From Candidatus Methylomirabilota bacterium (GTDB lineage: Bacteria > Methylomirabilota > Methylomirabilia > Rokubacteriales > CSP1-6), in NCBI GenBank assembly GCA_035936835.1, contig DASYVT010000231.1, positions 1 to 33,668 on the forward strand: a stretch of DNA of 33,668 nt, in the 5' to 3' direction. The position numbers and the translations under genes are program-made. The notes under the pieces were generated by a model, which saw only the letters and a program-made list of their open reading frames with translations, did no database searches and had not been told where the DNA came from. Of the stretch, positions 7,432 to 23,173 are shown piece by piece (position 1 is the first letter of the stretch; every line of letters begins with the position of its first letter).

Positions 7432-8169
7432 ATGGCGGTGAATATCCTCGGTGTTATTCCGGCGCGGCTGCATTCGACCCGCCTGCCGCGCAAGGTCCTC
7501 CGCGAGATCGCGGGCGTGCCCATGGTGGTCTACGTCTTCAGGCGCGCCCAGGGCTGCCGGCTCCTCTCCGACCTCCTCGTCGCAACCGACAGCGAAGAGG
7601 TCGTCGAGGCCTGCCACGCTCATCACGTGCCCGCCGTGATGACCTCGGCCTCGCACCACTCCGGAACGGACCGGCTCTGGGAGGTCTCGCGCGCGCGAGT
7701 GGCCGACGTTTACGTCAACGTCCAGGGCGACGAGCCGCTGGTCACCACGGGGCACATCGAGACGCTGGTCCGGCCCTTTCTCAACGAGCCCGAGGTCCAG
7801 GTCACCACGCTCAAGATCCGCGCGACCCCCGACGAAGTCGCCAGCCGCACGGCCAACAAGGTGGTGACGGACCGCCACGGTAATGCGCTGTACTTCTCGC
7901 GGCTGCCGATCCCCTTCGATCGCGACAATGTCGGCGGCATCATGTACTGGAAGCACATCGGCATGTACGCCTATCGGCGCTCGGTCCTGGAGATGTACCA
8001 TTCGCTGCCGCCATCAGCCCTGGAGAGGGCGGAACAGCTCGAGCAGCTCCGCCTCCTGGAGCACGGCATCCCGATCCGCGTTCTCGAGACCCGCGAGGCG
8101 ACCATCGGCGTGGACACCGAGGAGGATCTCAAAGCGGTCGCCGCGCTCGTCGCATCCCGCCCGTTGTGA
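7432..8169 (+). CDS. kdsB: 3-deoxy-manno-octulosonate cytidylyltransferase (CMP-KDO synthetase)
   Basis: 245 residues, the normal KdsB length. It activates KDO with CTP to give CMP-KDO and pyrophosphate in the cytoplasm, for attachment to lipid A. The nucleotide-binding start VIPARLHSTRLPRK (residues 8-21), SGTDR (77-81), the Mg-binding QGDEP (98-102) and KHIGMYAYRR are all present. ATG at 7432 has no obvious Shine-Dalgarno. No other LPS gene is near: upstream is the palindromic repeat and downstream are MFS transporters. Its stop codon lies within a short tandem repeat. It is the clearest sign in the window that the cell makes LPS. Confidence 0.95.
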   Translation: MAVNILGVIPARLHSTRLPRKVLREIAGVPMVVYVFRRAQGCRLLSDLLVATDSEEVVEACHAHHVPAVMTSASHHSGTDRLWEVSRARVADVYVNVQGDEPLVTTGHIETLVRPFLNEPEVQVTTLKIRATPDEVASRTANKVVTDRHGNALYFSRLPIPFDRDNVGGIMYWKHIGMYAYRRSVLEMYHSLPPSALERAEQLEQLRLLEHGIPIRVLETREATIGVDTEEDLKAVAALVASRPL

Positions 8170-8201
8170 AACACGCGTGGCGTGAAACACGCCTGGCGTG
8201 A
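8166..8201 (+). repeat. Tandem 16-bp direct repeat spanning kdsB stop and MFS start
   Basis: Two 16-base units, 8166-8181 and 8182-8197, differ at one base, and a third unit begins at 8198 with GTGA. The first unit supplies the kdsB TGA; the truncated third supplies the GTG start of the MFS gene. Duplication by slippage may have separated genes that originally overlapped as GTGA. Confidence 0.7.
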
Positions 8202-9391
8202 CTAATCGCTGGGCCATCCTCGCGTTGATCATGGCCGCCCAAACCATGGCCAACGTCGCCCCGCTCGGCATCCCATCCATCGCGCCCTTGATCCGCGAGG
8301 ACCTGGGACTCAGCCTGGCGCAGGCGGGCTCCTTTCTCTCCGCCTACTACGTCGGAGCCTCACTCATGTCCCTGCCCGCCGGCTGGATGGCCGACCGGTG
8401 GGGCGTCATGATGACCATGGTGCTGGGGCAGGCCGTCATCGCCGCCGGCCTCTACGCCGTCGCGGGCACGGGCTCCTTCTCCCTGCTCATGATCGTCATG
8501 ATCTGCGCCGGCGTGGGCTACGGCATGCTCAACCCGACGACGGCCAAGGCGGTCATGGCATGGTTCCCCCGCCGCCAGCGCGCCACCGTCGTCGGCCTCA
8601 AGCAGGTCGGCCTGCCGCTGGGCGGCGCGATCGGCGCCTCGATCATGCCGCCGCTCGCCCTCTGGCTCGGTTGGCGACCGGCGGTCGCGCTACCGGCCTC
8701 GCTGATCGCGGTCCTGGGCGCGCTGACGTGGCTCCTCTACCGCGACCCGCCCGCCGCCGCCGACGCCGGAGGGACGCCGGCGGGAGTCGCGAGCCTCCGG
8801 AGCGTCCTCGGCAACCGCGACCTCTGGCTCGTCTCGGGCGCCACGCTGATCTTCGCGGGCATGCAGACGGTCTGGATGTCCTTCCTCGTCCTCTACCTGA
8901 CGGAGGTGCTGCGCATCTCGCTGGTCCACGCGGGACGCTATCTCGTGATGGCCCAGGCGACCGGCATTGCCGGCCGCGTGATCTTCGGCATGCTCTCCGA
9001 CCGGCTCTTCGGCGGGCGCCGGCGCATCGTGCTCGTCATCGCCGGCGTTGGCTCGACGGCCTGCTCGCTCGTGATGGCGGGAACAGGGCCCGGCACGAGC
9101 GCGTGGGTGCTGGCGCCGCTCGCGCTCGCCTTCGGCTTCTTCGGCATCGGCTGGAACGGCGTCCAGCACACGCTCATGGCAGAGCTGGTCGGCCCGCGCA
9201 GCGCGGGCACGGCCATCGGGCTCGGGCTCGCCATCTCGTCCTTCGGCGTCACCATCTGCCCGCCGATTTTCGGCCTGGCCGCGGAGCGCCTGGGCGGCTT
9301 CGGCGTGCCCTGGGCGGGGCTCGGCCTCGTCATGGCCGCAACCTTGTGCCTCCTGATCCCGGTGCGGGAAGGAAGGATGGAGACCCCGTGA
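8198..9391 (+). CDS. MFS transporter
   Basis: 397 residues rich in hydrophobic segments, consistent with 12 membrane helices of the major facilitator superfamily. The motif-A loop between helices 2 and 3 is visible (AGWMADRWG), with a related AGRVIFGMLSDRLFGGRRR loop in the second half. It is an inner-membrane secondary transporter, probably proton-coupled; the substrate is unknown. The GTG start at 8198 has no good ribosome site and lies in a tandem repeat; the other nearby GTG (8182) is out of frame. Its stop overlaps the start of the next MFS gene (GTGA), so the two are co-translated. Confidence 0.88.
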   Translation: MTNRWAILALIMAAQTMANVAPLGIPSIAPLIREDLGLSLAQAGSFLSAYYVGASLMSLPAGWMADRWGVMMTMVLGQAVIAAGLYAVAGTGSFSLLMIVMICAGVGYGMLNPTTAKAVMAWFPRRQRATVVGLKQVGLPLGGAIGASIMPPLALWLGWRPAVALPASLIAVLGALTWLLYRDPPAAADAGGTPAGVASLRSVLGNRDLWLVSGATLIFAGMQTVWMSFLVLYLTEVLRISLVHAGRYLVMAQATGIAGRVIFGMLSDRLFGGRRRIVLVIAGVGSTACSLVMAGTGPGTSAWVLAPLALAFGFFGIGWNGVQHTLMAELVGPRSAGTAIGLGLAISSFGVTICPPIFGLAAERLGGFGVPWAGLGLVMAATLCLLIPVREGRMETP

Positions 9392-10808: not shown

Positions 10809-12167
10809 ATGACGACAGAGAAGCGCGAGGACGGAGCGTCGAACAGCCCGCAGGTGGACCGCCGGACCTTCATCAAAACCACGGGCGTGGCCGCGGGTGT
10901 GGCGGGCGGCCTCGAGGGCATCCTGGCCGCGCGCCGCGCGCCGGCCTTCGCCCAGGGCACGAAGCTGCACTGGGTGCGCTGGGTGGACTTCATCCCGGAG
11001 TCGGACGTGGAGCTGAAGCGCCAGATGCCCGAGGCATCCAAGGCGCTGGGCGCCGAGTGCGTGCTCGAGACCATCAATGCCAACGACCTCCAGGCCCGCA
11101 TCACCGCGGCCATCCAGTCGGGCGCCGGCGCCGACATCTTCAACTTCCAGTACAACTGGCCCCACCTGTACCAGAACGCCGTCGCGGACGTGTCCGATGT
11201 CGCCGGCGAGCTGGGCAAGGCCGAGGGCGGCTTCTACGAAATCTTCCCGCCCTCCTGCCAGGTCAACGGCAAGTGGCTGGCCCTGCCTCACTCGATCGTC
11301 GGGAACGCCGTCGCCTACCGGAAGTCCTGGCTGAAGGAGGCCGGAGCGAGCGAGTACCCCAAGACCTGGGACGCGGCGCTCAAGCTCTTCCCGGAGCTGA
11401 AGAAGAAGGGCAAGCCATACGGCCAGACGCTCGGCCACACATTCGGCGACGCGCCGACCTTTACGTACACGATGCTCTGGGCCTTCGGCGGCGCCGAGAC
11501 GGACAAGACAGGAAAGAAGGTCGTGCTCAACAGCAAGGGAGCGGTCGACTCGGTCAAGTTCATGCAGTCGTTCTGGAAGGACTCCTGCGATGAGGGCGGG
11601 CTTGCCTGGGACGACACGAACAACAACCGCGCCTTCCACGCGGGCGAGATCTCTGCCACGCTCAACGGCGCCAGCATCTACATCGTGGCCAAGCGGCAGA
11701 AGGAGAAGATCAAGGACGAGAAGGGCGAGCCGATGTATCTCGACATCGGGCACGCGCCGCTGCCGGCCGGCCCGTCGGGCGCCTACCTCCTCTTCCTCAA
11801 CCAGTCGAACGCGCTCATGAAGTACTCGAAGAACCCGAAGCTCGCGAAGGACTTCCTCCGCTGGATCCACAAGTCGGACAACTACGGCAAATGGTTCACG
11901 ACGCAGGAGGGCTACAGCGTCGGCGGCACCAAGGTCTGGGAGAACAACCCCATGTGGGCCAAGCTCGACGAGCCGCTCAAGATGTTCCGGACCGCGGCGC
12001 GCAACACGCGCCTCTTCGGCTACGCCGGCCCGTCCACGGCCAAGGCGACCGAGGCCTTCACGAAGTACATCGTGACGGACATGTACGCCAAGGCCGTCCA
12101 GGGCATGAAGGCCGAGGACGCCGTGAAGTGGGCCGAAGGCGAGCTCAAGAAGGTCTACGAGGCCTAG
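10809..12167 (+). CDS. ABC sugar-type substrate-binding protein 1 of tandem triplet (SBP_bac_1), Tat-exported
   Basis: 452 residues from ATG at 10809, nine bases after AAGGAG. A twin-arginine signal is clear (DRRTFIKT, arginines 18-19, cleavage near AFAQ 46-49). The mature part begins LHWVRWVDFIPESD and contains the WDDTNNNRAF block shared by all five CUT1-type binding proteins here. Length and layout match the extracellular solute-binding family 1 (UgpB/MalE-like). It should deliver a sugar, glycerophosphodiester or related polyol to the MalF/MalG pair downstream. It is the first gene of the operon. A 76-base stretch near its 3' end (12077-12152) is identical to the second copy, so duplication or gene conversion is recent there. 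The ligand is unknown. Confidence 0.9.
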   Translation: MTTEKREDGASNSPQVDRRTFIKTTGVAAGVAGGLEGILAARRAPAFAQGTKLHWVRWVDFIPESDVELKRQMPEASKALGAECVLETINANDLQARITAAIQSGAGADIFNFQYNWPHLYQNAVADVSDVAGELGKAEGGFYEIFPPSCQVNGKWLALPHSIVGNAVAYRKSWLKEAGASEYPKTWDAALKLFPELKKKGKPYGQTLGHTFGDAPTFTYTMLWAFGGAETDKTGKKVVLNSKGAVDSVKFMQSFWKDSCDEGGLAWDDTNNNRAFHAGEISATLNGASIYIVAKRQKEKIKDEKGEPMYLDIGHAPLPAGPSGAYLLFLNQSNALMKYSKNPKLAKDFLRWIHKSDNYGKWFTTQEGYSVGGTKVWENNPMWAKLDEPLKMFRTAARNTRLFGYAGPSTAKATEAFTKYIVTDMYAKAVQGMKAEDAVKWAEGELKKVYEA

Positions 12168-12195
12168 TCACCGATCCGACATGACGGAGGGGTCT

Positions 12196-13560
12196 ATGAC
12201 GACTCCAATAGCTGACACCGCGACCACGGGACGGACAACCGTAGACCGCAGGACGTTTCTCACGACCGCCGCCGCCGCGGGTCTGACCGCGGCGGCAGGC
12301 ATCGAGGGAATCCTGGCCGCCGGCCGGGCGCCGGCCTTCGCCCAGGGCACCAAGCTTCACATCGTCCGGTGGGTGGACTTCATCCCCGAGGCCGACCTCG
12401 AGCTGAAGCGCCAGGCGCCCGAGGCCTCCAAGGCTCTCGGCGCCGAGGTCACCTTCGAGTTCATCAACGCCAACGATCTCCAGGCACGGATCACCGCCGC
12501 CATCCAGTCCGGCAGCGGCGCCGACATCATCCAGATGCTCTGGAACTGGCCGCAGCTCTACGCCAATGGCCTGGTGGACGTGTCCGACGTCGCCGAGCCC
12601 ATCGGCAAAGCCCAGGGCGGCTACTACGACGTGTTCAACAATACCGCGAGGGTCGGCGGGCGGTGGCTGGCGGTCCCGCACGGCACCGGCGGGAATGCCA
12701 TCGCCTACCGTCGGTCGTGGCACGCGGAGATCGGGGTCAAGGAGTTCCCGAATACCTGGGACGAGTGGCGCGAGGTGGGCAAAAAGCTCAAGGCCAAGGG
12801 CAAGCCGGTGGGCCAGGCGCTCGGCCACAGCTTCGGCGACCCGCCGACCTTCGCGTATCCGCTCCTCTGGGACTTCGGCGGCGCCGAGGTTGACACGACC
12901 GGAAAGAAGGTCGTGATCAACAGCAAGGGCGCCATCGAATCGGTGAAGTTCATGCAGGCCTTCTGGAAGGACGCCTGCGACGAGGGCGGGCTTGCCTGGG
13001 ACGATACCAACAACAACCGCGCCTTCCACTCCGGCGACATCTCGGCGACACTCAATGGCGCCTCCATCTACATCGTGGCCAAGCGACAGAAGGACAAGCT
13101 CAAGGACGAGAAGGGCGAGCCCCTCTTCCAGGACATCGAGCACGCGGCCCTGCTCCCGAAGGGACCGGCCGGGCAGTTCGCCCTCTACGGCGCCTTTCAG
13201 CACTCCGTCATGAAGTACTCGAAGAACCAGAAGCTCGCCAAGGATCTCCTCAGGTGGATGCACCAGAAGGAAAACTACGGGAAGTGGTTCGAGGTCAACG
13301 AGGGGTATACCGTCGGCGCCACCAAGGTCTGGGAGGAGGACCCGATGTGGAGCCGGATCGACAAGCCCCTGCAGATCTTCCGGCAGGCGGCGCGCCAGAC
13401 GCGGATGTTGGGCTATCCAGGCCCGGCATCGGCCAAGGCCACGGAGTCCTACACGAAGTACATCATCGTGGACATGTACGCCAAGGCCGTCCAGGGCATG
13501 AAGGCCGAGGACGCCGTGAAGTGGGCCGAAGGCGAGCTCAAGAAGATCTACGAGGCCTGA
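12196..13560 (+). CDS. ABC sugar-type substrate-binding protein 2 of tandem triplet (SBP_bac_1), Tat-exported
   Basis: 454 residues from ATG at 12196. An in-frame ATG at 12181 is rejected because the ribosome site GGAGG (12186-12190) lies between the two, and the third copy starts at the matching position. The Tat signal has arginines 18-19 (DRRTFLTT) and cleavage near AFAQ 47-50. The mature protein is clearly homologous to copies 1 and 3 along its whole length, with the shared IPEADLELKRQAPEASKALG and WDDTNNNRAF blocks. It differs in the presumed pocket segment (MLWNWPQLYAN against FQYNWPHLYQN in copy 1), so it may bind a related but different ligand. The gene lies 28 bases after copy 1 and 27 before copy 3. 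Confidence 0.9.
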   Translation: MTTPIADTATTGRTTVDRRTFLTTAAAAGLTAAAGIEGILAAGRAPAFAQGTKLHIVRWVDFIPEADLELKRQAPEASKALGAEVTFEFINANDLQARITAAIQSGSGADIIQMLWNWPQLYANGLVDVSDVAEPIGKAQGGYYDVFNNTARVGGRWLAVPHGTGGNAIAYRRSWHAEIGVKEFPNTWDEWREVGKKLKAKGKPVGQALGHSFGDPPTFAYPLLWDFGGAEVDTTGKKVVINSKGAIESVKFMQAFWKDACDEGGLAWDDTNNNRAFHSGDISATLNGASIYIVAKRQKDKLKDEKGEPLFQDIEHAALLPKGPAGQFALYGAFQHSVMKYSKNQKLAKDLLRWMHQKENYGKWFEVNEGYTVGATKVWEEDPMWSRIDKPLQIFRQAARQTRMLGYPGPASAKATESYTKYIIVDMYAKAVQGMKAEDAVKWAEGELKKIYEA

Positions 13561-13587
13561 TAGCTATCTCTACACTACGGAGGGTCC

Positions 13588-14961
13588 ATGACGACTCCAA
13601 CAGCTGACAACGCAGCCACAGGACGGACGACCGTAGACCGCCGGACATTTATCAAGACGGCGGGCCTCACGGCGTCCGCCGCCGCGGGACTGACCGCGGC
13701 GGCGGGCATCGAGGGCATCCTGGCCGCGCGCCGCGCGCCGGCCTTCGCCCAGGGCACGCGGCTCAACATCCTCCGCTGGGTGGACTTCATCCCGGCCTGC
13801 GACGTGGAGCTGAAGCGCCAGGCGCCCGAGGCCTCCAAGGCGCTCGGCGCCGAGGTGGTTTTCGAGTTCATCAACGGCAACGACCTCCAGCCGCGGATCA
13901 CGGCCGCCATGCAGTCGGGGGCGGGACCGGACATCATCATGATGCTGCACAACTGGCCGCACCTCTACCAGAACGGCCTCGTGGACGTGACCGATCTGGG
14001 TGATTGGCAGGGCAAGGAGCAGGGCGGCTACTACGCCCAGTCCGAGGCGGCTGCCAAGGACGGCAAGCGCTGGCTCGCCCTGCCCCACGGCATCGTGGGG
14101 CTGCAGTTCGCCTACCGGAAGTCGTGGTTCGACGAGGTGGGCCAGACCTCGTGGCCGAAGACCCTCGACGAGCTGCGCCAGGTCGGGATGAAGCTCAAGA
14201 AGAAGGGCCATCCTCTCGGCCAGACGCTCGGCCACACCTTCGGCGACGCTCCGGCCTGGTCCTACCCGCTCACCTGGGGTTTCGGCGGCGCGGAAGTGGA
14301 CAGAACCGGCAAGAAAGTCGTGCTGAACAGCAAGGAGACCGTCGAGGCGGTCAAGTTCATGCAGGCCTACTGGAAGGACGCCTGCGACGAAGGCGGCTTC
14401 GCCTGGGACGACACGAGCAACAATCGCGCGTTCCTCTCGGGCGAAATCGCGGCGACTCTCAACGGCGCGAGCATCTACATCGCGGCCAAGCGGGGCCAGG
14501 ACAAGATCAAGGACGAGAAGGGCGAGGCCATGGTCAAGGACATCCAGCACGGGCCCATCCCGAACGGGCCGGCCGGGACGTGGGCGTACCACGTCGCCTT
14601 CTCGCACGCCGTCATGAAGTACGGGAAGAACCCCAACCTTGCCAAGGACTTGCTCAAGTGGATGCATGGTAAGGACCAGTTCGGCAAGTGGTTCCTCGTC
14701 GCCGACGGCTTCTCGGTCGGCTCGACGAAGTACTGGGAACAGAGTCCGATGTGGAATACCATCGACGCGCCGATGAAGATCTATCGCCAGGCCGCCGCCG
14801 CCTCGCGGATGATCGGCTACGCCGGGCCGCCGTCGGCCAAGGCGACGGAGGTCTACTCGAAGTACATCCTGACCGACATGTACGCCAAGGCCTGCCAGGG
14901 CACCAAGGCCGAGGACGCCGTAGCGTGGGCGTCCGGCGAGCTGGGAAAGATCTACGGATAA
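13588..14961 (+). CDS. ABC sugar-type substrate-binding protein 3 of tandem triplet (SBP_bac_1), Tat-exported
   Basis: 457 residues from ATG at 13588, three bases after GGAGGG. Its first 20 residues nearly match copy 2 at both DNA and protein level, with arginines 18-19 (DRRTFIKT) and a slightly longer Ala-rich signal ending AFAQ 52-55. The shared family block appears as WDDTSNNRAF. The presumed pocket segment reads MLHNWPHLYQN. The C-terminal tail (ASGELGKIYG) has drifted from the almost identical tails of copies 1 and 2. The stop is four bases before the GTG of the MalF permease, so this copy is the one most tightly coupled to the membrane components. Confidence 0.9.
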   Translation: MTTPTADNAATGRTTVDRRTFIKTAGLTASAAAGLTAAAGIEGILAARRAPAFAQGTRLNILRWVDFIPACDVELKRQAPEASKALGAEVVFEFINGNDLQPRITAAMQSGAGPDIIMMLHNWPHLYQNGLVDVTDLGDWQGKEQGGYYAQSEAAAKDGKRWLALPHGIVGLQFAYRKSWFDEVGQTSWPKTLDELRQVGMKLKKKGHPLGQTLGHTFGDAPAWSYPLTWGFGGAEVDRTGKKVVLNSKETVEAVKFMQAYWKDACDEGGFAWDDTSNNRAFLSGEIAATLNGASIYIAAKRGQDKIKDEKGEAMVKDIQHGPIPNGPAGTWAYHVAFSHAVMKYGKNPNLAKDLLKWMHGKDQFGKWFLVADGFSVGSTKYWEQSPMWNTIDAPMKIYRQAAAASRMIGYAGPPSAKATEVYSKYILTDMYAKACQGTKAEDAVAWASGELGKIYG

Positions 14962-14965
14962 CGAA

Positions 14966-15934
14966 GTGAAGAAGCCCATCGCCGGCGGATCGGGCAGCGC
15001 GGCCGGAATCGCGGCCGCGCTGCCCCACGCCGAGGCGTCGCGCCCCGGGCGGATGACCCGGTGGCTCGAGAGCGAGCGCCTCCTGGCGACACTCCTGCTG
15101 GCGCCGGCGGTGCTCCTGCTCGGCCTCTTCATCGCCTACCCGTTCGTGATGGGCGTGTGGCTGTCAATGTCAAACGTCAGCGTGGGCAATCCGGGCGAGT
15201 TCGTCTGGTTCCGCAACTTCATCAAGGCCTGGAACGATTCGATCTTCCGGACCGCATTCGGGAACACGGTCTTCTACACGTTCTGGGCGACCATCTTCAA
15301 GCTGGCGCTCGGGATGTGGCTGGCGCTCCTCCTCAACCGGCACTTCCGGGGCAAGCGGATCGTGCGGGCCGGCATGCTCCTGCCCTTCATCGTGCCGACC
15401 GTGCTCAGCACCTTCGCGTGGCGCTGGATGTTCGACCCGACGTTCAGCGTGCTCAACTGGATGCTCTACCAGGGCGGCTTCATCACCACCAAGCTGCCCT
15501 TCCTCTCCGACGGCACCTACGGCATGTGGTGCGCCATCGTGGTCAACACGTGGCGCGGCATGCCCTTCTTCGCCATCACGCTGCTGGCCGGGCTGCAGAC
15601 CATCAGCCCCGATCTCCAGGAGGCCGCCTCGCTCGACGGGGCCAACGGCTGGTACCGGTTCTGGCACGTCACCTGGCCGCTCCTCAAGCCCGTGACCGTG
15701 GTCGTCGTGGTGTTCTCGATCATTCAGACCTTCTCCGACTTCCAGCTGATCTACGTCCTGACGGGCGGCGGCCCGGCCAACGCCACGCACCTCCTGGCAA
15801 CCTACGCCTACCAGATCGGCATCGCCACGGGGCTCCTGGGCGAGGGCGCCGCGATCTCGCTCTTCATGTTGCCGGTCCTCTTCATCGTGGTCTGGCTGCA
15901 GCTCCGCTACCTCCGCCGCCTGGAAGGGGCGTAG
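14966..15934 (+). CDS. MalF-type sugar ABC permease (pair 1)
   Basis: 322 residues from GTG at 14966. A 35-residue polar N-terminal tail precedes the first membrane segment, LLATLLLAPAVLLLGLFIAYPF. The ATPase-coupling EAA loop is canonical (EAASLDGA, 219-226). TGGGPANATHLLATYAYQIG near the end is typical of UgpA/MalF/LacF proteins. It forms half of the inner-membrane channel with the MalG encoded three bases later. Close homologues occur at 25751-26734 and 31427-32365 in this window. Confidence 0.93.
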   Translation: MKKPIAGGSGSAAGIAAALPHAEASRPGRMTRWLESERLLATLLLAPAVLLLGLFIAYPFVMGVWLSMSNVSVGNPGEFVWFRNFIKAWNDSIFRTAFGNTVFYTFWATIFKLALGMWLALLLNRHFRGKRIVRAGMLLPFIVPTVLSTFAWRWMFDPTFSVLNWMLYQGGFITTKLPFLSDGTYGMWCAIVVNTWRGMPFFAITLLAGLQTISPDLQEAASLDGANGWYRFWHVTWPLLKPVTVVVVVFSIIQTFSDFQLIYVLTGGGPANATHLLATYAYQIGIATGLLGEGAAISLFMLPVLFIVVWLQLRYLRRLEGA

Positions 15935-15937
15935 CGC

Positions 15938-16789
15938 GTGGTCATTGAACGCCGCTGGAAGCGGTGGGTGTACTTCTACATTCCGCTCACGGTCTTCGTG
16001 ATCGGGACGCTCTTCCCCTTCTACTGGATGCTGATCACGGCCATTCGCCCCGATTCCGAACTCTACCGCTCCTGGCGGGCGGTCAACAACGCGCCCTTCT
16101 GGACGCTGCACCCGACGCTCGAGCACTTCCAGGACCTCTTCGCCAAGACCACGTTCCCGCGCTGGCTCTGGAACACGTTCTTCATCGCCTGCGCCTCCAC
16201 GGCCATCTCGCTTTTCTGCGGGCTCCTGGCCGGCTACGCGCTCGGGCGCCTCAAGTTTCCGCTGGCCGGCACGATCGGCACCTCCATCTTCGTCACCTAC
16301 CTCGTGCCGCCGACGCTCCTCTTCATCCCGCTGGCGAACATCATTCGCGCCTTCCAGCTCGGCGACACGCCGTGGGCGCTCATCCTGACCTACCCGACCT
16401 TCCTGATCCCCTTCTGCACCTGGCTGCTCATGGGCTACTTCAAGACCATTCCGAAGGAGCTGGAGGAGTGCGCGCGCATCGACGGCGCGACGCGCTTCGG
16501 GGCCATGATCCGAATCATCTTCCCGATCGCCGTTCCCGGCATCCTCTCGGCGGGGATCTTCGCCTTCACGCTGTCGTGGAACGAGTTCATCTACGCGCTC
16601 GTCTTCCTCTCCTCGCCCGAGAAGAAGACGGTCCCGGTCGGCGTGGTCTCGGAGCTGATCCGCGGGGACATCTACTTTTGGGGCCAGCTCATGGCGGGGG
16701 CCCTGCTGGGCTCCATCCCCGTCGCCGTCGTCTACTCCTTCTTCGTCGAGTACTACGTGACGGGCCTGACCGGCTCCGTCAAGGGGTAG
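15938..16789 (+). CDS. MalG-type sugar ABC permease (pair 1)
   Basis: 283 residues from GTG at 15938, three bases after the MalF stop. Hydrophobic segments follow the MalG pattern, and the EAA loop is canonical (EECARIDGA, 176-184). The C-terminal region has the ELIRGDIYFWGQLMAGALL block, also found in the MalG proteins of pairs 3 and 4 but not in pair 2. It is the last gene before a 171-base gap holding a strong hairpin and the ATPase gene. Confidence 0.93.
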   Translation: MVIERRWKRWVYFYIPLTVFVIGTLFPFYWMLITAIRPDSELYRSWRAVNNAPFWTLHPTLEHFQDLFAKTTFPRWLWNTFFIACASTAISLFCGLLAGYALGRLKFPLAGTIGTSIFVTYLVPPTLLFIPLANIIRAFQLGDTPWALILTYPTFLIPFCTWLLMGYFKTIPKELEECARIDGATRFGAMIRIIFPIAVPGILSAGIFAFTLSWNEFIYALVFLSSPEKKTVPVGVVSELIRGDIYFWGQLMAGALLGSIPVAVVYSFFVEYYVTGLTGSVKG

Positions 16790-16960: not shown

Positions 16961-18054
<1,094 letters not shown>

Positions 18055-18055
<1 letters not shown>

Positions 18056-18080
18056 GGATGAGGGCTCCTGCCCTCATCCT
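18055..18080 (+). promoter_or_regulatory. 11-bp perfect hairpin enclosing the start codon of the second LivK gene
   Basis: Bases 18055-18065 pair perfectly with 18070-18080 around a four-base loop. The left arm contains the ATG at 18058 and the last base of the MalK stop. In mRNA the hairpin would hide the start codon unless opened by a ribosome finishing MalK, which suggests translational coupling or dosage control. The control role is inferred. Confidence 0.6.
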
Positions 18081-19239
18081 CATCCTCCTCTTCCTCCTCA
18101 TCCTGACGGCCTCGGTCGCGAGCGCGGCCGAGCCCCTCGTCATCGGTGAGATCAACCCTCTGACGGGCGCGCTGGCGCTCCAGGGAACCAGTGTTCACCA
18201 GGGCATCGCGCTCGCCATCGAGGAGCAGAACGCACGGGGGGGCGTCGGCGGCCGATCGATCGCGCTCCTGTCCCGGGACGACGAGGGCAGGCCGGAACGG
18301 GCCCTCGCGGCCGCCGAGGAGCTGACCGGCCGCCGCGGCGCCGTCGCCCTGGTGGGCGGGTACGTCGACAGCCTCGTCGGGCCCATCGCCGAGGTGGCGG
18401 ATCGCGCGCGCGTCCCCTACCTCGCCACGGCCTCCCTCGACGAGCGCCTCACCGAGCGGGGCAACCGGTACTTCTTCCGGATCTCAAGTCTCTCATCCTA
18501 TGTGCGCGTCACGACCGGCATCACGCTGGACACCCTGAAGGCCGACAACGTCGCCATCCTGTACTCGCACACCCCGGGGGCGTCCCAGCTCGCCCGGCGC
18601 CAGAAGGAGGCGCTCGAGAAGGCGGGCGTTCGAGTGTCTGTCTACGAGCCTTTCGCTCCCGGGCTGTCGGACTTCACTTCCTTCCTGATCCGGATACGTG
18701 AGCAAGGGGCCCAGGTGCTCCTGTCCGATACCTTCTTCGCCGACCACCTGCTCCTTGTGCGCCAGATGGCGCAGGCGGGGATCACGGTGCGGGCGTTCCT
18801 CGGCGCCTTCGGCATGGAGTTCCCCAGCGTGATCCGCGAGCTGGGCTCATCGAGCGAAGGGCTGTACGGCACCACCGCCTGGCAGCTGGGAGTCCACCCG
18901 GGGGCGCAGGATGGCGAATCGCGCGCCTTCATCGATGCCTACGCCCGGCGCTTCGGAGGCGCGCCCGTGCCGCTGTCGATGCACGGCTACGCGGCCGCGC
19001 GCGTGCTGCTGGCCGCCCTCGAGGCGGTGGCGCGCGGCGGCCGGCCGGTCACGGGGGAGACGCTGCGCGATGCGCTGGCCGCTGCCGACGTGACGACGCC
19101 GCTCGGTCGCGTGAAGTTCGACAACAAGGGCGACCCGCTCTACTACGAGCGCGTGGTCGTCCAGATCCAGAACGGCCGGCACGTCGTCGTCTATCCGAAG
19201 ACCCGCGCCACCGCTCCCATCCAGCTCCCCGCGCGCTAG
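18058..19239 (+). CDS. LivK-type substrate-binding protein (Peripla_BP_6) within a sugar-type operon
   Basis: 393 residues. A Sec signal peptide of very hydrophobic character covers residues 1-24 (cleavage near ASAA). The mature protein opens with LVIGEINPLTGALALQG and IEEQNARGGVGGRSIAL, the type-I periplasmic binding fold used by Liv/amide/urea systems. Its neighbours are instead a MalK-type ATPase (two bases upstream) and a MalF/MalG pair (16 bases downstream). LivK proteins normally work with LivH/LivM, so this is a mixed arrangement. It may feed a Liv permease elsewhere (a LivH begins at 33236), sense a ligand, or work with the atypical pair 2 permeases. The start codon is inside a hairpin, and no other start lies in the signal peptide. 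Confidence 0.88.
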   Translation: MRAPALILILLFLLILTASVASAAEPLVIGEINPLTGALALQGTSVHQGIALAIEEQNARGGVGGRSIALLSRDDEGRPERALAAAEELTGRRGAVALVGGYVDSLVGPIAEVADRARVPYLATASLDERLTERGNRYFFRISSLSSYVRVTTGITLDTLKADNVAILYSHTPGASQLARRQKEALEKAGVRVSVYEPFAPGLSDFTSFLIRIREQGAQVLLSDTFFADHLLLVRQMAQAGITVRAFLGAFGMEFPSVIRELGSSSEGLYGTTAWQLGVHPGAQDGESRAFIDAYARRFGGAPVPLSMHGYAAARVLLAALEAVARGGRPVTGETLRDALAAADVTTPLGRVKFDNKGDPLYYERVVVQIQNGRHVVVYPKTRATAPIQLPAR

Positions 19240-19255: not shown

Positions 19256-20158
19256 ATGGTCCGGGTGACCATGAGGCGGACACAACGGCAGCGCGATATC
19301 CGGACCGCGTACCTGCTGCTGTCGCCCGCGGTCCTCCTGCTCCTGACAGTGCTGGCCTATCCCGTGGGGTGGGAGGTCTGGACGAGTCTTACCTCTCTCT
19401 CACCGCTCCAAGAGGGCGCCACGGCGTTCGTCGGGCTGCAGAACTACAGCCAGCACCTCGAGGACCCGCAGTTCTGGCGGACGGCGGCCGTGACCGTCGT
19501 CTACGCCGTGGTCACGATCGCGGCCAAGCTGGCCTTGGGGCTCGGCTTCGCCCTTCTCCTCGCCCGGCCCTTCCGGGGTCGGACCCTCGTGTTCCTGGCA
19601 ATCTTCCTCCCGTGGGCGTACCCCGCGAGCGTGAGCGTGATGGGCTGGTACTGGACGCTCAACCCTCCGATTCCCACCGCCTACGCCGCCTTCATGGGCC
19701 ACGTCAAGTACAGCGTGGACAGCGCGTTCGGCGGCGGCGCCTGGGTATTTGTGTCCGCCACGTTGTTCAACATCTGGCGCGGCAGCTCCTTCATCGGCGT
19801 GCTCCTGCTGGCAGGGATCAACGGGATCCCGCCGGAGCTGTTCGAGTACGCGCTCCTGGAAACGAAGAGTCCCTGGCAGCGCTTCCGGATGGTGACCATG
19901 CCGCTGCTCAAGCCGTTTCTCGCGCTGGGAGCGTTTCTCTCCCTGACGAGCGCGTTCTCGGACATCGCCAACGTCTGGATGCTCACCGCCGGCCGCATTG
20001 TCTTCCCCGTGCTCGGCACCCAGGCCTACTGGCTCGCCATCAACGGCGGACAGTTCGGGCCCGCCTCGGCGTTGTCGCTGCTGCTGGTTCCCTTCCTGCT
20101 CGGCGCCCTCCTGCTGCTGTTCCGGCTCTTCGATTCTCCGGAGCGGGAGGCCGCGTGA
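19256..20158 (+). CDS. MalF-type ABC permease, divergent (pair 2)
   Basis: 300 residues from ATG at 19256 (an ATG at 19271 is possible). Membrane segments follow the MalF layout, beginning TAYLLLSPAVLLLLTVLAYP. The coupling loop is degenerate: it reads EYALLETKSPWQRF (197-210) where the other permeases have EAAxxDGA, so the conserved glycine is a threonine (203) and DGA is absent. The rest of the channel looks complete, including the run to MPLLKP. It would pair with the MalG encoded in overlap (GTGA). It is not closely similar to pairs 1, 3 and 4, so it has a separate history. Confidence 0.88.
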   Translation: MVRVTMRRTQRQRDIRTAYLLLSPAVLLLLTVLAYPVGWEVWTSLTSLSPLQEGATAFVGLQNYSQHLEDPQFWRTAAVTVVYAVVTIAAKLALGLGFALLLARPFRGRTLVFLAIFLPWAYPASVSVMGWYWTLNPPIPTAYAAFMGHVKYSVDSAFGGGAWVFVSATLFNIWRGSSFIGVLLLAGINGIPPELFEYALLETKSPWQRFRMVTMPLLKPFLALGAFLSLTSAFSDIANVWMLTAGRIVFPVLGTQAYWLAINGGQFGPASALSLLLVPFLLGALLLLFRLFDSPEREAA

Positions 20159-21027
20159 ATCCCAGGCCCTGGTGGACGAAGCTCGGTCACCTGAGCCTGA
20201 TACTGCTGGCCACGGTCTACTGTGTCTTTCCGGTCTACTTCATGCTGGTGCAGTCGCTGAAGACGGCCCAGGAGGATGTCTTCGGCAACCCGTTCATCGT
20301 CCTGCATCCGACCTTCGAGAGCTTCGAGGAGCTGTTCGAGGGCCGGGGCGAGGGTCGAGGCGTCATCGGCTCCACGCTCCGCCGCGCATACCCCTTCCTC
20401 GACTGGCTCGAGAACACCCTCTTCGTCTTTGCCGGCACGCTGGCCATCACGCTTTCGGTGAGCCTCGCCGCCGCCTATGCCCTCGGCCGGCTGCGGCCCC
20501 CGGGCTTCCGATGGTGGCGGCGCGCGATCTTCGCCACGTACGTGATTCCGCAGACGATCCTCTTCGTGCCTCTCTATCGGGTGGTGATCGTGCTCGGGCT
20601 GGACGACAGTCTCCTGGCGCTCCTCCTCGTCTACCCGACGATGGCCCTGCCCTTCTGCGTCTGGCTCCTCTCGGCCTACTTCCAGCATCTGCCGCGGGAG
20701 ATCGAGGAATCGGCCCTCATCGAAGGGGCGAGCCGAGCCACGGCCTTCTTCCGGATCATCCTGCCCATGAGCCGCCCGGTCCTCGTCGCCTGCGGCATCT
20801 TTACCCTCGGCACGGCCGCGAGCGACTTCACGATCGCGTCCCTGTTCCTCATGAGCGGGCACAACCAGACCATCCCGGCCGGGCTCGGCACGATGGAGGT
20901 GGCCCTCGACGAGCTGGCGGCGGTGGCGGGGATCAATCTGATGGCTCTGCCGGTGATCCTGATCTGCGCCCTGTTCGCGCGGGGCTACGTGCGCGGCCTT
21001 ACGGCAGCGATGGTCGAAGGGGTCTGA
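20155..21027 (+). CDS. MalG-type ABC permease, divergent (pair 2)
   Basis: 290 residues from GTG at 20155, overlapping the TGA of the preceding gene. Its coupling loop is normal (EESALIEGA, 184-192), unlike that of its MalF partner. Compared with the other MalG proteins here it has an insertion near residues 60-85 (an acidic, glycine- and arginine-rich stretch) before the second membrane segment, and it lacks the C-terminal LIRGDIYFWG block. It forms the second half of the pair 2 channel. The TonB receptor gene starts seven bases after its stop, which places outer- and inner-membrane components in one transcript. Confidence 0.9.
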   Translation: MNPRPWWTKLGHLSLILLATVYCVFPVYFMLVQSLKTAQEDVFGNPFIVLHPTFESFEELFEGRGEGRGVIGSTLRRAYPFLDWLENTLFVFAGTLAITLSVSLAAAYALGRLRPPGFRWWRRAIFATYVIPQTILFVPLYRVVIVLGLDDSLLALLLVYPTMALPFCVWLLSAYFQHLPREIEESALIEGASRATAFFRIILPMSRPVLVACGIFTLGTAASDFTIASLFLMSGHNQTIPAGLGTMEVALDELAAVAGINLMALPVILICALFARGYVRGLTAAMVEGV

Positions 21028-21034
21028 GCCCCGA

Positions 21035-23173
21035 ATGATCAGGGGCCCGATCCAATCGGTCCTCGTTCTTCTCTTCCTCGCCCCCGCGGCGTTCGGCCAG
21101 CAGAGGGAGCCGCCGGGACAGCAGGACCCGGCCATCGTCAGGTTGCCCCCTGTGCAGGTGACGACGCCGGCGCCGGATCTGCTGCCGCGCTCGGCGACCC
21201 CGGCCCACGTCGACACGCTCACTCCGAGCGACCTCGACCGCGCCCAATCCACGGTCCTGCCCGATGCCCTCGAGCGCCTCCCCGGGGTGACGCTCCAGAA
21301 CGAGCAGGGCACACCCTTTCAACCCACCCTCACGCTGCGGGGGTTCGTGGCGTCGCCCGTGACAGGCTTGCCGCAGGGGGTGAGCGTGTTCCTCGATGGA
21401 GTTCGGTTGAACGAGCCGACCGTCGAGGAGGTGAACTTCGACCTCATTCCCCTCGAGGCCATCGACCGAGTGGAGATCATTCGCGGACCGTCGGTCCTCT
21501 TCGGGCGTAACACGCTGGGCGGCGCCGTCAACCTCCTCACCCGGCGCGGCGAGGAGGTCCGGGAGATCATCCCCCAGCTGTCGGCCGGCAGCTTCGGGCG
21601 CGTGGACACGCGCTTCCGGCTCGGCGGCACGGCGCGTCCTTTCGACTATTTCCTCTCATTCACGCGGACCGCCGAAGACGGCTATCGCGACTTCACCGCG
21701 GCTACGGTGAACCGCGTCTTCGGGAAGCTTGGCTTCGAGCGCGGCGGCACCGACGTCACGGTCTCCTATCAGTGGAGCCAGGACAAGCTCAAGCAGGCGG
21801 GGTCGCTGCCCGAGAGCGAGCTCACGCGCGACCGCCGCGCGAACTTCACGGCCGGAGACTACTTCAAGCCCGAGCTGAACTTCGCGATCATCAATGCCGA
21901 GCACAGCTTCGGCGACAGCCTGACCGCGAACCTGAACGCCTTCGTGCGGGCGCTTTCCGTCACGCAGTTCAACGTGAACCTCATCACGTCGAATACGAAA
22001 CTCGAGAACAACACGCTATCGACCGGAGGAGGGCTGCAGCTGAAGTACCGGAGCACGATCGCCGGCCTCCCGAGCCTCCTCGTAGGCGGCGTCGAGTACA
22101 CGTGGAACCGGGTCACGAGCAAGACGCTCCAGGAGACGTCCGGCACATTCGAGACAGCGGCGGATCTTGCGGACACCCAGAATGCCTTCGCGATATACGC
22201 GCAGCATGCCCTCACGTTCTTCCGCGAGTTCGCCGGGCCCAAGTCGAGCGTCATCCTAACGATCAGCGGGCGCTACGACTGGCTGCAGCACGCCATCGAC
22301 GATCGCCTGGGCGGGCCCAGCGGCAGCACGGACACGTTCTCGCGGGTCAACCCTCGCGTCGGCGTCAACGTAAACTTTGCCGAGGGCGTGGGCGCCTACG
22401 CGGCCTACGCCCAGGGATTCCGCGCGCCCGCCTTCCTCGAATTGACCTGCGCCGGTCCTGGCGCGGTCTGTCCCGGGCTGCAGGTGGGCGTCGCGCCGGA
22501 CCCGCCATTGAAGGCGGTCAAGGCCCAGAGCTTCGAGGTCGGCGCCCATGCCCGCGTCGCCTCCTGGCTTCGGGCGGAGATCTCCGGGTACTGGACAGAC
22601 CTTACGGATGAGATCTTCGCCGTCACACCCACCGGCACGACGGGCGTCTTCTTCCAGAACGTGGCCGCCACGCGGCGGCAAGGCGTGGAACTGGATCTCC
22701 GTGGACGGTTCGGCGGCGTCCTGGAGCCGCGCCTGAACTACGCCTTCACCCGCGCGACCTTCCAGAGCCGTGCCGAGCTCGCGACTCCGGTCCCGCCCGG
22801 CACGGAGACTGTTCAGCCGGGCGACCGGCTCCCGCTGGTTCCGGAGCACCGCATCAACCTCGGCGTAGACTATCGCCCGTGGCCGTGGCTCCAACTGACA
22901 GTCGGCGCGGGGTGGGTCAGCTCGCAGTTCCTGCGCGGCGACGAGAGCAATCGGCAGCGACCGCTCGATCCGTACTGGTTCACCCACGGCGGCGCCTCCA
23001 TCCGGTGGCGCGGCCTGGAAGGGTTCGTCCAGATCAACAACGTGGCCAACGCGAAGTACGAAACGTTCGGCACGTTCGCACCCAACGGACGCGAGCCCGG
23101 GAATCCGGTGGAGCGCTTCCTGACGCCGGCGCCACCGATCAACGTCCTGGCCGGCCTCCACTACGTCTTCTAA
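21035..23173 (+). CDS. TonB-dependent outer-membrane receptor
   Basis: 712 residues, normal for the family. A signal peptide covers residues 1-21. The plug domain follows, with LPDALERLPGVTLQ, TLRGF, VFLDGVRLNEP and the hallmark IDRVEIIRGPSVLFGRNTLGG just before the barrel. The remaining 540 or so residues alternate as expected of a 22-strand barrel, including the NPRVGVNVNFAEGVGAYAAY and GFRAPAFLE blocks, and the protein ends in the aromatic Phe required for BAM assembly. It imports a scarce ligand across the outer membrane using TonB energy. Its position directly after an ABC permease pair suggests that ligand is passed to those permeases. Siderophore, cobalamin, carbohydrate or aromatic ligands are all possible. 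No TonB/ExbB/ExbD genes are present. Confidence 0.94.
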   Translation: MIRGPIQSVLVLLFLAPAAFGQQREPPGQQDPAIVRLPPVQVTTPAPDLLPRSATPAHVDTLTPSDLDRAQSTVLPDALERLPGVTLQNEQGTPFQPTLTLRGFVASPVTGLPQGVSVFLDGVRLNEPTVEEVNFDLIPLEAIDRVEIIRGPSVLFGRNTLGGAVNLLTRRGEEVREIIPQLSAGSFGRVDTRFRLGGTARPFDYFLSFTRTAEDGYRDFTAATVNRVFGKLGFERGGTDVTVSYQWSQDKLKQAGSLPESELTRDRRANFTAGDYFKPELNFAIINAEHSFGDSLTANLNAFVRALSVTQFNVNLITSNTKLENNTLSTGGGLQLKYRSTIAGLPSLLVGGVEYTWNRVTSKTLQETSGTFETAADLADTQNAFAIYAQHALTFFREFAGPKSSVILTISGRYDWLQHAIDDRLGGPSGSTDTFSRVNPRVGVNVNFAEGVGAYAAYAQGFRAPAFLELTCAGPGAVCPGLQVGVAPDPPLKAVKAQSFEVGAHARVASWLRAEISGYWTDLTDEIFAVTPTGTTGVFFQNVAATRRQGVELDLRGRFGGVLEPRLNYAFTRATFQSRAELATPVPPGTETVQPGDRLPLVPEHRINLGVDYRPWPWLQLTVGAGWVSSQFLRGDESNRQRPLDPYWFTHGGASIRWRGLEGFVQINNVANAKYETFGTFAPNGREPGNPVERFLTPAPPINVLAGLHYVF

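Follow-up and report, generated by a model that had tools for sequence, protein, structure and literature searches.

Tandem binding proteins before a permease pair in Rokubacteria: a candidate multi-binding-protein CUT1 importer

Three homologous substrate-binding proteins, here called S1, S2, and S3, are encoded in tandem directly upstream of a MalF/MalG-type permease pair in a contig of a Candidatus Methylomirabilota bacterium (Rokubacteriales; DASYVT010000231.1), the whole 33,668 nt of which were analysed and are referred to below as the window. With moderate confidence, the locus is taken to be a multi-binding-protein CUT1 importer, in which tandem S proteins of long standing serve a shared F-G-K translocator; such an array would probably enable a single importer to handle several related nutrients. 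The data agree nearly as well with different affinities for one ligand as with different ligands.

The S1-S2-S3 array and its predicted translocator

Positions 10809-14961 are filled by three complete ORFs on the + strand, followed in the same gene run by those for two permease pairs, an ATPase, and a further binding protein:

S1, 10809-12167, + strand: Tat-type CUT1 substrate-binding protein, clade S1 (452-aa ORF; Pfam SBP_bac_1, 93.9 bits)
S2, 12181-13560, + strand: Tat-type CUT1 substrate-binding protein, clade S2 (459-aa ORF; SBP_bac_1, 98.5 bits)
S3, 13588-14961, + strand: Tat-type CUT1 substrate-binding protein, clade S3 (457-aa ORF; SBP_bac_8, 88.7 bits)
F, 14966-15934, + strand: MalF/UgpA-type permease subunit (NCBIfam UgpA, E 3.5e-33, below the equivalog cut-off)
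G, 15938-16789, + strand: MalG/GlcU-type permease subunit (NCBIfam GlcU 1.3e-31 and MalG 2.7e-27, below cut-offs)
K, 16961-18055, + strand: MalK/UgpC-type ATPase (PRK11650, 513 bits, cut-off 432; ABC_tran, OB_MalK, TOBE_2)
Liv-type binding protein between K and F2, 18058-19239, + strand: Peripla_BP_6 (PF13458, 208.9 bits)
F2, 19256-20158, + strand: second MalF-type permease subunit (by homology)
G2, 20155-21027, + strand: second MalG-type permease subunit (from its translation and homologous matches in relatives)

The gaps are 13 bp between S1 and S2, 27 bp between S2 and S3, 4 bp between S3 and F, and 3 bp between F and G, with K starting 171 bp 3' of G; S2 could also start at the ATG at 12196. 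Pairwise identities are 68.5% (S1/S2), 69.0% (S2/S3), and 62.5% (S1/S3). All three proteins score above the Pfam cut-offs (SBP_bac_1 88-98.5 bits, cut-off 26; SBP_bac_8 85-89 bits, cut-off 27), and G+C content by codon position is patterned as in real genes. This confirms the reading in an earlier note, made from this DNA alone, of three intact homologous binding proteins before a MalF/MalG pair. The note had also spoken of a single such pair; that holds for F-G, which directly follows S3, but the second pair, F2-G2, lies beyond K in the same gene run. Among named records, those closest to the S1-S3 proteins are from Candidatus Rokuibacteriota, and the same operon is found in genomes of the same family. 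A promoter scan found no sigma-70-like sites. One source on Rokubacteria, PMC5103831, uses neither the term "ABC transporter" nor "binding protein" in its accessible main text.

Each of the three proteins starts with a twin-arginine-type signal (VDRRTF[IL]) followed by a hydrophobic stretch and an A-x-A type end, the signal region closing at AFAQ in every case; among 25 relatives, 90% or more keep R18 and R19. These features suggest that S1, S2, and S3 are exported by Tat, as the earlier note had them.

F fits the UgpA/MalF models and G the GlcU/MalG models, with E values from 9e-26 to 3.5e-33; with a MalK-type ATPase carrying an OB/TOBE domain, they make up a CUT1 importer. F scores 115.7 against an equivalog cut-off of 335 and G 110.3 against 340; the Ugp, Mal, Gan, and Ngc equivalogs give at most 25.7 bits with S1-S3, with cut-offs of at least 291; and only K scores above a cut-off, that of the UgpC subfamily (PRK11650). 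Assignment of a substrate from a family name was rejected, since none of S1-S3, F, or G reaches an equivalog cut-off.

Elsewhere in the window there are two more CUT1 binding proteins, S4 and S5, just 26-31% identical to S1-S3 and each adjoining its own permease pair; genome-wide, SBP_bac_1 has 24 matches. Upstream of the array, genes for a cytidylyltransferase (PF02348) and an MFS transporter (7432-9391) keep their position in many relatives. A TonB-dependent receptor (21035-23173) lies a few bases 3' of G2; none was recognised there in the relatives examined. With four CUT1-type permease pairs, the contig gives a single ABC ATPase domain match, K, which may therefore be common to several of them.

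Copy number in other loci

Multiple copies recur in orthologous loci, whose survey the earlier note had proposed. Among 40 Rokubacterial loci (those whose F is at least 60% identical, with 16 duplicates removed), one S-type copy lies 5' of F in 20, two in 15, three in four (the window, L014, L020, and L085), and four in one (L022:6138-11224), where the tandem proteins before F are S1, one copy whose placement in S1 or S2 is unsure, S2, and S3. At least two paralogous binding proteins thus occur in the transporter gene run in 20 of the 40 loci; in the other 20 a single one suffices, which counts against reading the array as a panel. L017, a contig-end locus with three copies, falls outside this count together with L036 and L041, as F is not on the contig. 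The natural sets seen are S1 alone, S2 alone, S1+S3, S2+S3, S2+S2, S1+S2+S3, and the set of four.

The 27 alpha- and betaproteobacterial loci with F mostly (21) have one upstream copy, but in some the copies are placed 3' of K instead: three in L061, an alphaproteobacterial locus where they are in tandem beyond F-G-K (L061:7001-14117), and two each in L067 and L068. The copies in L061 and L067 form a separate branch of the binding-protein tree, so amplification has occurred more than once. These counts follow a distance rule, by which L060 is scored as having none and L056 as having one; two copies are nevertheless found some 0.9 kb past K in L060, and a second one 1.4 kb upstream in L056.

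Age and turnover of the binding proteins

In a tree of 76 binding-protein rows, repeated with 84, the Rokubacterial members form three clades (S1, S2, and S3), each with many genera, and S1 and S2 are sisters. Support is 93/99 for 17 S3 rows, among them the long ones of L018 and L033, 99/93 for S2, and 100/99 for 22 S1 rows. The 76-row tree excludes L017 copies 1 and 3 and L076, which are short, and in the clade counts L022 copy 2 and L033 were placed with the outgroup; just eight alpha- and betaproteobacterial loci are in this tree, and four in that of F. The window's S1 groups with L083, its S2 with L017 and L078, and its S3 with L078. In multi-copy loci S1 comes first wherever it is present and S3 last, with the single exception of L020 (S1, S3, S2).

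Between the window genes and their closest orthologues dN/dS is 0.10-0.17 for S1, S2, and S3, indicating purifying selection; it is higher for more distant pairs (0.34 for S1 and its counterpart in genome G001, 0.29 for S3 and that in G006). Although dN reaches dS in segments of S1-S3 (0.48/0.44, 0.56/0.50), positive selection is not inferred, because third positions are about 91-94% G+C and dS is therefore unreliable. A recent tandem copy or an assembly error was rejected on the depth of the three clades, their conservation by selection, and the independent loci with three and four copies.

The sets themselves have changed while the permease has hardly done so. G001 matches the window at 95.3% identity in F, 96.8% in G, and 97.8% in K, but its single binding protein, from another branch of S1, at 73.2%. 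G002, with F 94.1% identical, has S2 and S3 (91-92%) and lacks S1 in the run. On the F tree, changes in presence number at least six for S1, nine for S2, and three for S3. As close relatives keep the permease (94-95%) yet carry different sets, the binding proteins form the exchangeable module, and this turnover is the strongest support for regarding them as the tunable part of the importer. Old, separately conserved paralogues before a shared translocator, with sets that turn over at constant permease, are what one would expect if several binding proteins use one channel. To this extent the earlier note's proposal of one channel with several specificities is supported; the pocket, where divergence is not significantly concentrated, does not add to it.

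Fold and pocket

AlphaFold models of S1 and S3 (mean pLDDT 84.9 for each) have an oligosaccharide-type Venus-flytrap fold as predicted. The S3 model superimposes on MalE3 of Thermotoga maritima (6dtq) with Z 41.1 and rmsd 2.6 over 379 residues, and on CbpB of C. thermocellum with Z 40.5; MalE3 is also the best Foldseek match of the S1 model (6dtq, E 1.5e-21). Structure prediction had been put forward in the earlier note as a check on the pockets, and it bears out the fold; the pocket comparison itself, made by alignment to MalE, shows no significant enrichment of divergence.

The pocket map comes from a profile alignment to MalE at 23% identity and comprises 26 mapped positions. One segment had been singled out in the earlier note as the presumed pocket, and its three versions are present as quoted in S1, S2, and S3. 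In S3 it is:

DIIMMLHNWPHLYQN, 13930-13974, + strand: S3 pocket-loop segment, residues 115-129, aligned with MalE 58-72 in the ligand-loop region

MalE contacts its ligand through W62, D65, and R66, whose counterparts in S3 are residues 119, 122, and 123. The segment falls on a pocket loop of MalE. Of its residues, only 121 (S3 numbering throughout) tells the three clades apart cleanly, being Y in 20 of 22 S1 rows, W in 18 of 22 S2 rows, and H in 16 of 16 S3 rows, but its neighbours N122 and W123 are invariant across all three. Other clade-specific loop positions are 70 (E/E/A in S1/S2/S3), 221 (A/P/A), and 223 (T/T/A), and, less strictly, 172 (N/L, S3 against the rest) and 224 (F/W); D66, D220, P222, and S295 are invariant mapped pocket positions like N122 and W123.

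Overall, clade divergence is not significantly raised at the 26 mapped positions (mean 0.381 vs 0.298 elsewhere; circular-shift fraction 0.14), and of the 20 most divergent positions one is in the mapped pocket, where 1.3 would be expected. A high-divergence stretch at S3 331-339 may also face the cleft; it was noticed after the enrichment test and not counted. The pocket segment is a sensible hint of a ligand difference, short of evidence for different ligands.

CbpB, the beta-glycoside-binding protein of T. thermophilus, and MalE3 share the fold of the array proteins (Z about 40) at about 20% identity. W67 of the T. thermophilus protein, the counterpart of the invariant W123 in the alignment, was mutated by its crystallographers (W67A). 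The stacking residues of CbpB, W90 and W296, seem from the alignment and the numbering of its record to be without a tryptophan counterpart in the S proteins.

The second permease pair and alternative readings

That the copies stem from recent tandem duplication and supply dosage only, with no functional difference, is very improbable: they do stand in tandem and S1 and S3 have the same predicted fold, but at 62-69% identity, in clades of many genera each held by purifying selection, this reading was already disfavoured. It is appreciably likelier, if still doubtful, that S1-S3 bind one and the same ligand with differing affinity or under differing conditions, as the three PstS homologues of Synechococcus WH8102 do; in the available text on these (PMC10846223), all three bind phosphate with a roughly 10-fold difference in affinity ascribed to one residue. 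That precedent, the invariant core of the mapped pocket (N122, W123, P222, S295), and the lack of pocket enrichment among the clade differences all speak for an affinity series. Against it, loop positions 70, 121, 221, 223, and 224 are nearly fixed by clade, with 172 setting S3 apart, in keeping with a changed ligand periphery, and sister genomes with the same permease carry different sets.

The shared docking of all three proteins on F-G is made uncertain by the second permease pair. The gene run includes K in 24 loci, and 18 of them have F2-G2 beyond it. Nothing recognised intervenes in 14 of the 18, where K and F2 are up to 583 bp apart; a Liv-type binding protein is found between them in the window, L082, and L098, and an S5-F-G set in L083. 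Where F2-G2 has no binding protein of its own, it could be supplied by the S proteins or by an unlinked protein. The S proteins might be divided between F-G and F2-G2, with K shared and neither pair taking all three. Where K is visible, nearly all multi-copy loci have F2 (16 of 17; L022 ends at a contig edge), as against two of seven single-copy loci, in keeping with such a division; on the F tree, however, this association comes down to two independent pairs (sign test, p 0.5), L098 and L099 combine F2-G2 with one S-type protein (L098 with a Liv-type protein as well), and in the window the Liv-type gene is just before F2. Divided service is rated as unlikely, and F2-G2 is not put forward as the reason for the extra binding proteins.

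The Liv-type gene of the window begins 2 bp after K and ends 16 bp before F2. Liv-type (Peripla_BP_6) binding proteins usually partner LivHM permeases. The same K-Liv neighbourhood is seen in L030, L037, L082, L095, L098, L108, and L112. With low probability, the whole could be a many-to-many importer: one to four swappable S proteins and, in some genomes, a Liv-type protein from a different structural class would together serve two permease pairs with a common ATPase, and lineages would retune uptake by exchanging binding proteins against fixed channel genes.

Comparison with known systems

Several binding proteins on one translocator is an established kind of arrangement, and the Rokubacterial array adds a well-conserved and strikingly modular member; the systems below are described from the available portions of their sources. 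Among the closest are the enterobacterial pairs HisJ/ArgT and ArtJ/ArtI, in which homologous binding proteins of one cluster serve one translocator. HisJ and ArgT, 70% identical and encoded in the same cluster, have different, overlapping ligands, and their association with HisQMP is reported, while that of ArtJ and ArtI with ArtQMP is supposed (PMC6640053, PMC10846223). These are amino-acid importers, however, not CUT1, and have two binding proteins. CbcX, CaiX, and BetX of Pseudomonas are likewise three, with distinct ligands and recruited by one translocator, CbcWV, but they handle quaternary amines and are also not CUT1.

The HMO cluster of B. infantis is a looser parallel, with Family 1 (CUT1-type) binding proteins as in the array. 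It encodes six closely related ones, of which the two tested share a core glycan (PMC3057974); it has several ABC transporter genes together with glycosyl hydrolases, whereas in Rokubacteria the binding proteins form a single tandem array immediately 5' of F-G.

Proposed mechanism and implications

In the multi-binding-protein importer favoured here, S1, S2, and S3 would each be exported by Tat, fold as an oligosaccharide-type Venus flytrap, capture a ligand of its own in the periplasm, and deliver it to the shared F-G-K, perhaps also to F2-G2. The invariant pocket positions D66, N122, W123, D220, P222, and S295 would keep one class of ligand, presumably sugar-like, and the clade differences E70/A, Y/W/H121, N172/L, A221/P, T223/A, and F224/W would tune the choice of ligand within that class or the tightness of binding. 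Lineages would then gain, lose, and swap S proteins while the translocator is kept.

On this view, a single-substrate name for such an operon would be wrong. The locus also supplies natural combinations for studying several binding proteins on one translocator. If the proposal is right, the permease alone does not reveal the importer's range, and the uptake range in this uncultured soil phylum would evolve by adding, losing, and replacing binding proteins around a nearly constant channel.
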